5,144 bases of DNA. Source: Prolixibacteraceae bacterium (GTDB lineage Bacteria > Bacteroidota > Bacteroidia > Bacteroidales > Prolixibacteraceae). The notes under the pieces were generated by a model that did no database searches, had not been told where the DNA came from, and saw only the letters and a program-made list of their open reading frames with translations. The DNA lies in contig JACMKG010000129.1 in assembly GCA_014380255.1 (NCBI GenBank), forward strand, positions 1 through 5,144, given 5' to 3'. The translations under genes and the position numbers were made by a program. Each line of letters starts with the position of its first letter. The stretch's first letter is position 1. This document shows, in pieces, positions 1,625 to 5,144 of this stretch.

Positions 1625-3508
1625 ATGATCAACCATATGAGAAGAGTCAGTCAGATTTTAAATCTTACAATCTTTATTCTTCTACTCTCTACGTTGAGTT
1701 TCTGCCAAAAGTCAGAAGCTCAACCTGAGGTAGAACCGGAATTAGAGTTAACTGGAATATTGAAGACTCTTCATAAAGACCATCCTAGGTTATTATTGAC
1801 CAATGTTCGGCTTCAGGAATTAAAGATCCTGAGCAGTAAAGACCCTAAACTGAAGAAATATGCAGCCGATGTGATCGCACAGGCGGATAAGGACCTTTTT
1901 AAATCTCCGATAGAGCATGTTTTGATTGGCCCTCGGTTGTTGGATAAAAGTCGTGAATGCCTCAATCGAGTGTACAATCTTTCTTTTGCGTATCGTTGGA
2001 CGAATAATCCGAAATACCTGAGTTCAGCCATTGCGAATATGAAAAATGTTTGCTCATTTGCTGATTGGAACCCTTCACATTTTCTGGACGTAGCCGAAAT
2101 GACCCACGCCGTTGCGATTGGCTATGATTGGCTTTATCACAGTATGGATCAGCCAACCCGTAATCAGATTAAAGCTGGATTAATCAAGCTGGGCTTGGAA
2201 GAGGGGAAAAAAGCATATGCCTCTAATGCATGGTGGATGAAAGTTGATCATAATTGGAATCAGGTATGCAATAGTGGATTAGCAATTGGGGCATTGTCCA
2301 TCGCCGAAACAGATCCGGATCTTGCCTTGTATATGATACCCAAAGCAATTGAATTACTGCCCTTTGCTTTGAAAAGTTATGGGCCTGATGGTGTTTGGGG
2401 CGAAGGACCAGGCTATTGGTTGTACGCGACCGATTACACAGCTTACGGAATCTCGGCTTTGCAAACTGCACTGGGAAGCGATTTCGGATTGACAAAACAG
2501 CCTGGTCTGAACCTTACGGGTTATTTCCCCATTTATTCAGCCGGTCCTTCCGGATATATGCTCAATTATGCTGATGCAGGTGAGAAGTCGAAACTGGGAG
2601 TACCTCATCCTTGCCTTTGGCTGGCCGGAGTATATAATAACAGCCATTTTTCAGATTTCGTAATTGACCAATTAGAAACCCGAACAGCCAATGTTTTTGA
2701 TATCATTTGGTTTCAGCCCTATGCCCATTCTGCTGCAAATCGCCCCTTGGATATATTCTTTGATGGCAAAGTTTCCCTTTATTTTTCAAGAAGTTCCTGG
2801 ATTGATCCGAATGCATTGTGGATTGGGTTTAAAGCTGGTTATAATAAAGTTAATCATGCTCATCTTGATCTTGGAAATTTCGAATTGGATGCTTTAGGTG
2901 TTCGGTGGGCCCGCGATCTGGGCTCAGATGATTACAATCTTCCAGACTATTTTGGCAGCAAAAGATATACCTACTATAGGCTTCAGTCCATTAGTCACAA
3001 TGTCCCCGTTTTGAACGGACAAAACCAACGTCAGGACGGCACATCCCAGTTTATAAAACATGGAGAGGGAATTTCTGAACCCTATGCGGTAATTGATTTT
3101 ACTAGTGCATATAAAGACTTTGCCAGTTTAGCGCAACGGGGGATTAAGTTACTGGACAACAGAAAATCAATCTTGATTCAGGATGAATTCATTTTAACCA
3201 AATCAGCTGAATATATGTGGGGAATGACTACGGATGCTTCTATTCAAATCATAGGCTCAAAAGAAGCTGAACTTACATTGAACGGACAGAAAATGAAGGC
3301 AAGGATTTTGGCACCATCCAATGCTGTATTTACAGTCGAATCAGCCCAACAGGCTAAGCCACAAAAAGAAAACAGGGATGTAAGCAGGCTTTTAGCTAAA
3401 GTTCCTGAAACGATTGGAAGCATCACTTTTGCCATTCAGTTATCACCACAATGGCCAGGGTCGGTTGCAACAACAACCATCGTTGAACCACTTTCAGAAT
3501 GGAAATAA
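1625..3508 (+). CDS. Exported heparinase II/III-family polysaccharide lyase (complete)
   Basis: Complete 627-aa protein, paralogous to the upstream gene. Residues 5-26 are a basic then hydrophobic export signal. It is followed either by a signal peptidase I site (SEA, cleavage after A32) or by a lipidated C27. HPRLLLTNVRLQELK (53-67) is the typical N-terminal opening of this family, followed by a long helical domain (about 70-370) with HNWNQVCN (H209, N210) and GPGYWLY (Y264, likely catalytic Tyr). The beta-sandwich part has VNHAHLDLGNF (H411, H413, D415), WARD (D431) and SHNV (H458). The H209-Y264 spacing of 55 equals the His202-Tyr257 spacing I recall for Pedobacter heparinase II. Expected role: beta-elimination cleavage of a uronic-acid polysaccharide outside the cytoplasm. 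Start: ATG 1625 gives the longest form; ATG 1637 (MRRVSQ) is an equally plausible start with a better signal-peptide n-region. No Shine-Dalgarno sequence is seen. GH88 follows after 34 bases, so co-transcription is likely. The substrate (heparin-like, other GAG, or another acidic glycan) is unresolved. Confidence 0.92.
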   Translation: MINHMRRVSQILNLTIFILLLSTLSFCQKSEAQPEVEPELELTGILKTLHKDHPRLLLTNVRLQELKILSSKDPKLKKYAADVIAQADKDLFKSPIEHVLIGPRLLDKSRECLNRVYNLSFAYRWTNNPKYLSSAIANMKNVCSFADWNPSHFLDVAEMTHAVAIGYDWLYHSMDQPTRNQIKAGLIKLGLEEGKKAYASNAWWMKVDHNWNQVCNSGLAIGALSIAETDPDLALYMIPKAIELLPFALKSYGPDGVWGEGPGYWLYATDYTAYGISALQTALGSDFGLTKQPGLNLTGYFPIYSAGPSGYMLNYADAGEKSKLGVPHPCLWLAGVYNNSHFSDFVIDQLETRTANVFDIIWFQPYAHSAANRPLDIFFDGKVSLYFSRSSWIDPNALWIGFKAGYNKVNHAHLDLGNFELDALGVRWARDLGSDDYNLPDYFGSKRYTYYRLQSISHNVPVLNGQNQRQDGTSQFIKHGEGISEPYAVIDFTSAYKDFASLAQRGIKLLDNRKSILIQDEFILTKSAEYMWGMTTDASIQIIGSKEAELTLNGQKMKARILAPSNAVFTVESAQQAKPQKENRDVSRLLAKVPETIGSITFAIQLSPQWPGSVATTTIVEPLSEWK

Positions 3509-3542: not shown

Positions 3543-4769
3543 ATGAAATCTTTAATTGTTGTATTTCTTCTTTTTCTATGTGTTTGTGCAGTCGATGCCG
3601 GTACTCCAAAGTATAAAAGGATTGTGAGGGATGCTGAAAAGCAAACCAATGTAATGCTTGATGAGATCAATCAGGAAAAATCAGTAGCAACCAATGATGC
3701 GGAGAAAACGAAAAAAGCTGAGCTTGTGTCACCCCGTACCCTTTCATCAGATAACAATCTGATTCTTGTGCCTTCCAAAGATTGGACAAGCGGTTTCTTC
3801 CCTGGAGTTTTATGGTATCTCTATGAATCTACAGGTGACAAAAAATGGGAACAACAAGCACGTGCTTTTACTTCAAAAATCGAAAAGGAAAAGATGAATG
3901 GAGGTACTCATGACATGGGATTTAAAATCTACTGTAGTTTTGGAAATGGGTACCGTCTGACAAACGATCCAGGTTATAAAGAAGTTATTATCCAGTCTGC
4001 CAAAACTCTTTCCACACGTTTCAATCCAAAGGTAGGATGTATCCGTTCATGGGATCATAACAAGGATAAATGGGACTATCCTGTTATTATTGACAACATG
4101 ATGAATCTTGAACTCTTATTTGCGGCAACACACCTGACAGGTGATTCTTCCTTCTATAAAATTGCTGTAAGCCATGCAAATACCACCATGCAAAACCATT
4201 TTCGTTCTGACTTTAGTAGTTATCATGTGATTGATTACGATCCTATTACAGGTAATGTGACAAAAAAGAACACTCACCAGGGATTCAGTCATGAATCATC
4301 ATGGGCACGCGGTCAAGCCTGGGCTTTGTATGGTTATACAATGTGCTATCGGGAAACAAAGAATCCGAAATATTTGGAATTGGCAGAAAAGATTGCCGGA
4401 TTTATCTTGAATCATCCTAATTTACCTGCAGACTTAGTTCCTTATTGGGATTTTAATGCACCGGGAATTCCCAATGAACCAAGGGATGCTTCTGCTGCAT
4501 CCATTATAGCATCAGCATTCTATGAATTATGCGACTATTCTGAAAAAGGCAAGTATTACCGTGATTTAGCCGATAGGATCATGGAAAACTTGACAATCAA
4601 TTATCGTTCTTCATTAGGCGACAATAAAGGTTTTATTTTGGTGCACAGCACCGGTTCAAAACCGATGAATAGTGAGGTAGATGTTCCATTAAATTATGCT
4701 GACTATTATTACCTTGAAGCCCTGTTACGCTCGAAAAATAAAATCAAATATATGGTAAAAATCAAGTAA
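3543..4769 (+). CDS. GH88 unsaturated glucuronyl hydrolase, exported
   Basis: Complete 408-aa protein of normal family length. Family role: hydrolyses the 4,5-unsaturated uronic acid from the non-reducing end of oligosaccharides made by polysaccharide lyases, through hydration of the double bond. Residues 1-19 are a signal peptide (MKSLIVVF..., cleavage likely after VDA, A19), pointing to the periplasm. The (alpha/alpha)6-barrel motifs appear in order: DWTSGFFPGVLWYLYE (80-95), HDMGF (123-127, D124), DNMMNLELL (184-192, D184), YDPITGNV (232-239), HQGFSHESSWARGQAW (245-260), PYWDFNAP (300-307), RDASAASI (314-321) and LEALLR (391-396). D124 and D184 match the two catalytic aspartates recalled for the Bacillus enzyme (Asp88, Asp149), with nearly the same spacing (60 versus 61). 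HDMGF and WARGQAW favour GH88 over the related GH105. The lysine-rich tail after LEALLR (about 12 residues) is a minor extension. The gene lies 34 bases after the lyase and fits one transcript. The leader before ATG 3543 is AT-rich with no Shine-Dalgarno sequence. Confidence 0.95.
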   Translation: MKSLIVVFLLFLCVCAVDAGTPKYKRIVRDAEKQTNVMLDEINQEKSVATNDAEKTKKAELVSPRTLSSDNNLILVPSKDWTSGFFPGVLWYLYESTGDKKWEQQARAFTSKIEKEKMNGGTHDMGFKIYCSFGNGYRLTNDPGYKEVIIQSAKTLSTRFNPKVGCIRSWDHNKDKWDYPVIIDNMMNLELLFAATHLTGDSSFYKIAVSHANTTMQNHFRSDFSSYHVIDYDPITGNVTKKNTHQGFSHESSWARGQAWALYGYTMCYRETKNPKYLELAEKIAGFILNHPNLPADLVPYWDFNAPGIPNEPRDASAASIIASAFYELCDYSEKGKYYRDLADRIMENLTINYRSSLGDNKGFILVHSTGSKPMNSEVDVPLNYADYYYLEALLRSKNKIKYMVKIK

Positions 4770-4869
4770 GTTTTTGGAAAGCTTAGTTGTCGTATATAAC
4801 GAACGAATGTTTTTTAATTTTAGATGTGAACTCCAGCTCATACGGCTGACAGTCCACGACATGAAATTA

Positions 4870-4883
4870 GGCAATACATTGCC
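4870..4883. repeat. Nested palindrome GGCAAT-AC-ATTGCC
   Basis: A perfect 6-bp inverted repeat with a 2-base centre overlaps the outer end of the long palindrome. Its ATTGCC half (4878-4883) is also complementary to GGCAAT at 4966-4971, so in RNA that half could pair either locally or with the far arm, not both. The two GGCAAT copies (4870-4875, 4966-4971) also form direct repeats around the core. Confidence 0.75.
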
Positions 4884-4916
4884 TGTGTCTGTACGGTATC
4901 TGTACTGATGCTGTAC
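4884..4916 (+). repeat. Three tandem 11-bp units ending in CTGTAC (left arm)
   Basis: The units are TGTGTCTGTAC (4884-4894), GGTATCTGTAC (4895-4905) and TGATGCTGTAC (4906-4916). The last six bases are invariant and the first five vary. An 11-bp period is close to one turn of B-DNA, so the CTGTAC cores lie on nearly the same face of the helix. Confidence 0.9.
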
Positions 4917-4932
4917 TAATATGCCCAATTTA

Positions 4933-4965
4933 GTACAGCATCAGTACAGACACAGTACAGACAGT
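4933..4965 (-). repeat. Three tandem 11-bp units (right arm, inverted)
   Basis: On the + strand these read GTACAGCATCA (4933-4943), GTACAGACACA (4944-4954) and GTACAGACAGT (4955-4965). Read on the minus strand, the middle unit is TGTGTCTGTAC, identical to the outermost left-arm unit, and the inner unit TGATGCTGTAC is identical to the inner left-arm unit. A further isolated GTACAG at 4983-4988 is out of the 11-bp phase. Confidence 0.9.
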
Positions 4966-5020
4966 GGCAATGTGTGGGATAAGTACAGGAAAAGTAGCAC
5001 CGGGGTTTACGGACAAAGAA

Positions 5021-5045
5021 ATTATAATTATAGTGGAATTATAAT
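5021..5045. promoter_or_regulatory. AT-rich 9-bp inverted repeat upstream of the next gene
   Basis: ATTATAATT (5021-5029) and AATTATAAT (5037-5045) are perfect reverse complements separated by ATAGTGG. The repeat ends 36 bases before the ATG at 5082, a position suited to an operator or promoter-overlapping site; each half contains TATAAT. As RNA the all-A/T stem would be weak, so a DNA-level role is more likely. No -33/-35 element at proper spacing was found, so the regulatory role is inferred. Confidence 0.4.
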
Positions 5046-5081
5046 CGTGCTTACAGGAGTAAAACCTATAAAACCAGATCA

Positions 5082-5144
5082 ATGAAAAAGAACTCACTCA
5101 TAACTACTGTTTATTCTATCCTGATTGCCTTGAATGCAACCTGC
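5082..5144 (+). CDS. Start of an exported protein of unknown function (3'-truncated)
   Basis: Only the first 21 codons are in the window. They read MKKNSLITTVYSILIALNATC: a basic start followed by a hydrophobic stretch, typical of an export signal. C21 could be a lipidation site, but NAT before it is a poor lipobox, and the cleavage site may lie beyond the window. The frame closes upstream at TAG 5031-5033 and no other start codon fits between, so ATG 5082 is the likely start. By context it may be another exported component of the same polysaccharide locus; the visible residues do not identify it. Confidence 0.65.
   Translation, partial: MKKNSLITTVYSILIALNATC

Follow-up and report, generated by a model that had tools for sequence, protein, structure and literature searches.

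A periodic palindrome from Bacteroidales, read as a possible copy of a MITE-like, genome-specific fold-back repeat

A 98-bp palindrome built from GTAC-core modules lies near one end of the window, by which is meant the whole 5,144-bp stretch of DNA that was analysed. At about even confidence, it is read here as one copy of a dispersed fold-back repeat that is non-coding, specific to its genome, and MITE-like, and whose modules would be protein sites placed every 11 bp. The architecture of the element, the multi-copy dispersal of similar arrays in other genomes, the genome-specific modules of those arrays, and the absence of the palindrome from the orthologous gap of the nearest relatives were all observed. 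Genomes are designated below by the prefix G and loci by the prefix L.

The palindrome occupies positions 4876–4973 (98 bases), with two 44-base arms that match at 40 of 44 positions across a loop of 10. Each arm consists of an outermost 8 bp (ACATTGCC), three 11-bp units, and an innermost TAA, such that CTGTAC recurs three times per arm at an exact pitch of 11 bp. The features of the region are as follows.

3543..4769, plus strand: upstream GH88-like hydrolase gene, an open reading frame matching PF07470 Glyco_hydro_88 (E 2.6e-10)
4876..4919, plus strand: left arm, ACATTGCC followed by three 11-bp units, each ending in CTGTAC, and TAA; complementary to the right arm at 40/44 positions
4889..4894, plus strand: CTGTAC site 1, outer, left arm (from the sequence)
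4900..4905, plus strand: CTGTAC site 2, left arm (from the sequence)
4911..4916, plus strand: CTGTAC site 3, inner, left arm (from the sequence)
4920..4929, plus strand: centre or loop, TATGCCCAAT, unpaired in the RNA minimum-energy structure and in the DNA-fold centroid
4930..4973, plus strand: right arm, lag-11 self-match 0.64
4933..4938, minus strand: CTGTAC site 4, inner, right arm; reads GTACAG on the plus strand (from the sequence)
4944..4949, minus strand: CTGTAC site 5, right arm; reads GTACAG on the plus strand (from the sequence)
4955..4960, minus strand: CTGTAC site 6, outer, right arm; reads GTACAG on the plus strand (from the sequence)
5082..5144, plus strand: first 21 codons of the next gene, beginning MKKNSLITTVYSILIALNATC and truncated by the window end (from the sequence)

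The periodicity is pronounced, with a self-match at lag 11 of 0.61 in the left arm and 0.64 in the right, compared with at most 0.41 at the other lags from 5 to 16. When the window was shuffled 100 times with dinucleotides preserved, the best palindrome with 44-bp arms had a mean of 24.8 matching positions and a maximum of 27/44. A sequence-only reading had reported the same coordinates, arm length, loop, 40/44 match, and 11-bp CTGTAC units, and recomputation confirmed each of these, the shuffles never exceeding 27/44. Positions 4840–5010 fold as RNA at −75.1 kcal/mol (z −7.6), and the DNA fold of 4862–4987 has a z-score of −10.8.

Such a fold is what would be expected of a hairpin acting at the RNA level in the transcript of the cluster, either as a processing or stability element or as a terminator independent of a T-tract. 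This explanation is unlikely in our view. The site does lie between two genes on the same strand, and the match of 40/44 between opposed arms exceeds that between neighbouring units (0.61–0.64). The 5-base spacers of the window tell a similar story when counted by eye, with agreement at 11/15 positions where opposed and at 12/30 where unopposed. However, RNA pairing gives no reason for a GTAC every 11 bp, and no T-tract follows the stem. The sequence-only reading was correct in setting the palindrome apart from an ordinary terminator, since a T-tract is missing 3′ of the long stem on either strand and the stem does not qualify as an intrinsic terminator; that candidate was rejected. The sole terminator-like match in 4740–5144 is a separate 6-bp hairpin on the minus strand (4884–4869), part of a small, distinct inverted repeat at the left edge of the palindrome (4869–4884).

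Comparison with reference collections produced no named relative. Rfam 15 gave 15 matches with E values of up to 5, all below the gathering score, and those over the palindrome were animal microRNA hairpins. A plasmid collection searched with 4860–4990 yielded no matches, nor did viral contigs searched for the exact module CTGTACTGATGCTGTACTAA. A search of viral sequences for three successive CTGTACN5 units gave 28 stretches versus 24 for the reversed pattern; pitches of 10 and 12 bp gave 41 and at least 120, respectively, and the viral matches were set aside as background.

The palindrome is intergenic. The GH88-like gene stops 106 bp short of it, and the gene at 5082 starts 108 bp 3′ of it. 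Adjoining heparinase II/III-type genes occupy 1–1425 and 1625–3508 and are followed by the GH88-like gene, an arrangement comparable to a polysaccharide-lyase cluster. The closest relatives of the GH88-like protein are encoded at L094, from an uncultured Bacteroidales (82% across a portion of the protein), at L030 (76%), and at L029 (70%). In these three nearest relatives found, the palindrome is absent 3′ of the GH88-like gene, and the gene that follows differs from that of the window. The sequence-only reading had held that a single occurrence, not conserved in close relatives and with neither a transcript boundary nor protein binding at the site, would argue for chance or decay. Absence from the three nearest relatives agrees in part with that condition, but a lineage-specific dispersed repeat predicts the same pattern. 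In loci L029–L108, a hairpin scan found only one other long hairpin (L104), which is not periodic, and when those 963,345 bp of unselected DNA were scanned for periodicity, no 11-bp periodic palindrome emerged. Palindromes with periods of 7 and 14 bp were seen in the latter scan at L036, L045, and L072, all Chitinophagaceae-type loci.

Arrays of the same design are found in multiple copies in a small number of other Bacteroidales genomes. In G003, to which L029 belongs, CTGTACN5CTGTAC has 14 matches versus none for the reversed control. The unit TCTGTACCCSTTCTGTACC, allowing up to three mismatches, has 34 + 33 matches in this genome versus 2 + 0 for the control, and these resolve into 18 loci, leaving out five isolated places with three mismatches. 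In G008, the order-wide scan for CTGTACN5CTGTAC gave 11 matches versus 0, and the module NARSTCCAGTA gave 61 + 56 matches versus 5 + 4. Nineteen loci were read among the G008 matches listed, and converging arrays are present in all 19, none of which lies inside an open reading frame call of at least 80 codons. Fitting four units to each arm leaves a centre of 12 bp in 17 of the 19, of 14 bp in L457, and of 23 bp in L456, which bears one additional unit; the figure of four is imposed by the fit, and by eye an extra unit is visible in L456 and remnants in L457, L459, and L463. The proportions of the window palindrome (44 + 10 + 44) are like those of the G008 arrays.

A further family is that of G757, in which a pattern for the centre of the element matched at 28 + 15 = 43 places versus 0 in the control, 41 of the 43 without mismatch. 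Apart from the central one, almost every module in the 30 copies read consists of GTAC plus AATATAT, AATACTT, AATAGTT, or AATATTT. The long palindromes of this genome have the outer ends ACCAACTCCGG and CCGGAGTTGGT on some copies, while others are shortened on one side. Palindromic arrays were also seen in the three copies read from each of G061 and G710. By contrast, G057 bears arrays yet none of the five copies read is a palindrome. The best period of the palindromes was 11 bp in 15/18 loci of G003, 19/19 of G008, 29/30 of G757, 3/3 of G061, 3/3 of G710, 1/1 of G589, and in the window palindrome itself (1/1), although 11-bp patterns had served to select these loci and the pitch is therefore not independent evidence.

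With respect to distribution, 393 genomes of the order were scanned; 25 contain the pattern GTACN7GTACN{8,38}GTACN7GTAC, versus 19 for the reversed control (hand count). Presence barely exceeds the control, and the signal lies in copy number within a few genomes. Order-scan matches number 195 in G757 (overlapping), 28 in G057, 6 in G003, 5 in G710, 3 in G008, and 3 in G589, all versus 0 in the control, while G061 has 19 versus 11. The reversed core, CATG, gave no comparable copy numbers save for 14 in G752 and 11 in G061. CTGTACN5CTGTAC was present in 17 of 99 genomes of the order versus 12 for the control (hand count), with G003 and G008 alone standing out, and three successive CTGTACN5 units were present in 3/395 genomes of a phylum-wide sample versus 2/395 for the control.

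Each family is private to its lineage. For instance, the G008 module was found in 2 of 41 genomes, one being G008 itself and the other G020, in which it forms a plain tandem repeat. Likewise, both G757 copies on L589 are missing from the orthologous gaps of G842 and G840 (2/2 sites), where diverged intergenic DNA obscures the junction. Judged from sequence, then, the families are lineage-specific: GTAC recurs at an 11-bp pitch and the remaining bases are specific to the genome. The recurrence of GTAC is in part a product of the searches, because these used GTAC, and they would miss families with another core. A dispersed palindromic repeat family was one of two options raised by the sequence-only reading. 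Such families are real in G003, G008, G757, G061, and G710, each with its own unit sequence, and the window copy belongs with them by architecture and GTAC, not by sequence homology. The arrays of G003, G008, and G757 are non-coding, dispersed, and multi-copy, as is expected of MITEs.

The positions of the arrays relative to genes follow no common rule. In G008, flanking gene pairs are ++ in five cases, −− in three, +− in four, and −+ in six, with one side open in the remaining case. Convergent (+−) pairs make up 9 of 18 in G003, followed by −− (4), ++ (3), and −+ (2); three of the nine convergent pairs have an insertion-like element as a neighbour. In G757, oriented by the centre of the element, the left gene is on the minus strand in 21/30 copies and the plus strand in 7, with none in 2; an open reading frame call overlaps 15 of the 30 copies, most of these calls being short and two long. 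The lack of a common orientation argues against a single terminator or promoter role for all. With regard to the RNA hairpin in particular, the G008 gene pairs show no preference for 3′ ends, though G003 leans toward convergent pairs.

A further question is whether it is the sites or the pairing of the stem that is kept. In G008, opposed units match at 644 of 836 positions, compared with 664.5 ± 7.9 when right arms are shuffled among loci, and 99.66% of shuffles match at least as well as the observed arrangement, in a test that includes L456 with its register off by one unit. Opposed units thus match slightly below the shuffled level, and it is not exact pairing that has been maintained in this genome, contrary to what an RNA hairpin would predict. 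The G008 data favour sites over stem. In G757, the innermost tier has exactly one mismatch in 30/30 copies, the next tier is neutral (303 versus 300.4 ± 2.1 shuffled), and the outer tier scores 126 versus 119.2 ± 2.7, a value reached by 2.9% of shuffles (n = 12). Pairing is favoured or allowed in the window and in part of G757, and it may matter in some families. Perfect palindromes are unstable, and the avoidance of matches in G008 could reflect this instability. The other option of the sequence-only reading, a cooperative binding array, is favoured in G008, where the putative sites and their geometry are kept and opposed units are unmatched.

If the modules are protein sites, the palindrome could instead be a fixed operator and not a dispersed repeat. 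Its facing arrays would serve a head-to-tail regulator resembling CarH, BldC, or an excisionase, with either the gene at 5082 or the polysaccharide cluster under its control. BldC and excisionases, like CarH, are analogues of head-to-tail DNA binding. We consider a fixed operator unlikely. Its intergenic position, with a start codon 108 bp downstream, is suitable, and in the portion of the literature available (PMC9304148), the CarH and CarA operators are described as tandem 11-bp direct repeats of nnnnTnnACAn, three or four in each. That account shares with the present arrays the 11-bp pitch, the head-to-tail sites, and a tolerance of degenerate repeats, and a TGTACA stretch, as occurs in G757, fits the CarH repeat. 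On the other hand, the operators it describes have one orientation and overlap a single promoter, as opposed to being dispersed palindromes, and by eye none of the six window sites fits nnnnTnnACAn on either strand. Because the window sites fall outside this consensus, CarH is invoked as an analogy and not as a statement of membership. Nor do the surroundings suit an operator: the three nearest relatives differ in both the next gene and the gap, and the arrays of G003, G008, and G757 adjoin unrelated genes in no shared orientation.

Direct, non-palindromic 11-bp GTAC arrays were observed at L112, L119, L196, L197, and L110 (G001, G080, G002, G112), upstream of genes whose products look secreted; PKD, endosialidase-chaperone, or YCF48-type domains are present in some of these. 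Those at L112, L119, L196, and L197 count in favour of an operator insofar as they precede secreted or surface-type genes in other Bacteroidales. At L198 (1501–1949), an 11-bp GTAC array adjoins a small HTH_17 gene (PF12728, E 5e-9), which is followed by a mobile-element-type gene; this proximity also favours an operator, and the array may serve in autoregulation by the adjoining gene. Against such weight, the scan that yielded L196–L198 had hits in 3 of 16 genomes and control hits in 3 of 16. A second kind of 11-bp GTAC array, with CTGTACATATA-type units, was noted alongside the CCAGTA family at L191 and L195 of G008.

In the preferred reading, that of a dispersed fold-back repeat, 11-bp modules built on GTAC are lined up head-to-tail in two arrays that face each other across a short centre, and each genome has a module sequence of its own. 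The window's genome would hold further copies, one having been observed in 5,144 bp. A protein would stack on the modules at 11-bp intervals on the same side of the DNA, in the manner of CarH on its 11-bp direct repeats, and the element would form a landing platform of two arrays. A row of small DNA-binding domains, stacked head-to-tail along one side of the helix, would fit the 11-bp pitch, the GTAC core, and the acceptance of degenerate units. The element would spread through a transposase or recombinase that acts on these modules or its outer ends.

Signs of mobility were sought in the multi-copy families. Twenty G757 copies with both outer ends showed no target-site duplication: equal flanks comprised three 2-mers (2.05 expected), two 3-mers (0.95 expected), and none of 4 bp or longer, although the short ends are motif-defined and a shifted boundary could hide a duplication. 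The G003 arrays have conserved flanks. A 597-bp segment taken as the G003 element (L176:4861-5457) was rejected, as it is complete at one further locus, the others being partial and many consisting of the array and near flanks.

An insertion-like element with two open reading frames has an end within 250 bp of 5 of the 18 G003 arrays (L173, L174, L179, L180, and L186), its family having been named by eye from the two frames. Four of these loci have approximately 1.9 kb in common at 96–98% identity. A similar insertion-like end adjoins the G057 arrays. Some insertion sequences target palindromic units, for example IS1397 in E. coli. The placement of the insertion-like ends beside the arrays resembles that of such sequences.

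Dispersed palindromes in several genomes also bring to mind REPs or REPINs that a REP-associated tyrosine transposase (TnpA-REP, RAYT) mobilises, an explanation we regard as very improbable. In the accessible parts of the relevant accounts (PMC3733652, PMC2817692, PMC3116915), REP, REPIN, and BIME elements are likewise dispersed extragenic palindromes with a genome-specific sequence. The arrays described here are internally periodic at 11 bp and exceed the REP length of 20–40 bp given there (PMC3733652). Y1_Tnp occurs in five of six array-bearing genomes tested, but equally in five of six non-bearing ones, and G003, with its 18 array loci, has no Y1_Tnp match. Moreover, none of the 29 Y1_Tnp loci returned carries a GTAC pair at the 11-bp pitch or two G008 units. 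The link to RAYT was therefore rejected.

Porphyromonas gingivalis belongs to the same order, Bacteroidales. Among described elements, the closest is BrickBuilt, a MITE of intergenic regions in P. gingivalis with 23-nt direct tandem units in 1 to 22.8 copies, a leader and tail, short terminal inverted repeats, and a length of 84–991 nt, according to the part of the account available (PMC4596501). As described there, BrickBuilt is comparable to the present arrays in being non-coding, intergenic, species-limited, and present in 19 copies in one genome. It is likewise built of tandem units in which some positions are conserved and others vary, is predicted to form long stem-loops, and lacks an end in some copies. 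The arrays differ from BrickBuilt, so far as that account extends, in unit length (11 bp), in facing each other, and in size (~100 bp), with a near-fixed number of units per arm in G008. At their outer edges, the arrays have ACCAACTCCGG and CCGGAGTTGGT on some G757 copies, conserved flanks in G003, and, in the window, ACATTGCC alone. The TAACTGA heptamer arrays of Beggiatoaceae, Cyanobacteria, and a few Bacteroidetes are another case of short-unit intergenic arrays in the latter group; in the available portion of their description (PMC4679880), they are non-palindromic 7-nt direct repeats, which in the main species precede start codons in most cases. A literature search that took in few subscription journals found no account of 11-bp GTAC palindromic arrays.

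A bolder interpretation, offered tentatively and held to be improbable, is that the arrays are an undescribed landmark of Bacteroidales genomes: a pair of operators that face each other, each with four steps of 11 bp (44 + ~12 + 44 bp), bound by a head-to-tail reader of the GTAC core, with a spelling that drifts along with the reader and is private to each species. The beneficiary of such a landmark would be the chromosome or a selfish element, through positioning, supercoiling, or targeted insertion, and not the neighbouring genes.

Bacteroidales are abundant in many habitats, and their dispersed palindromes are little described. If the reading of the window palindrome as a dispersed fold-back repeat is correct, a single architecture, with a common GTAC core and a private spelling, recurs across distant genomes of the order. 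This would imply a DNA-binding protein or transposase yet to be discovered, and the sites now known in several genomes would offer a route to finding it.
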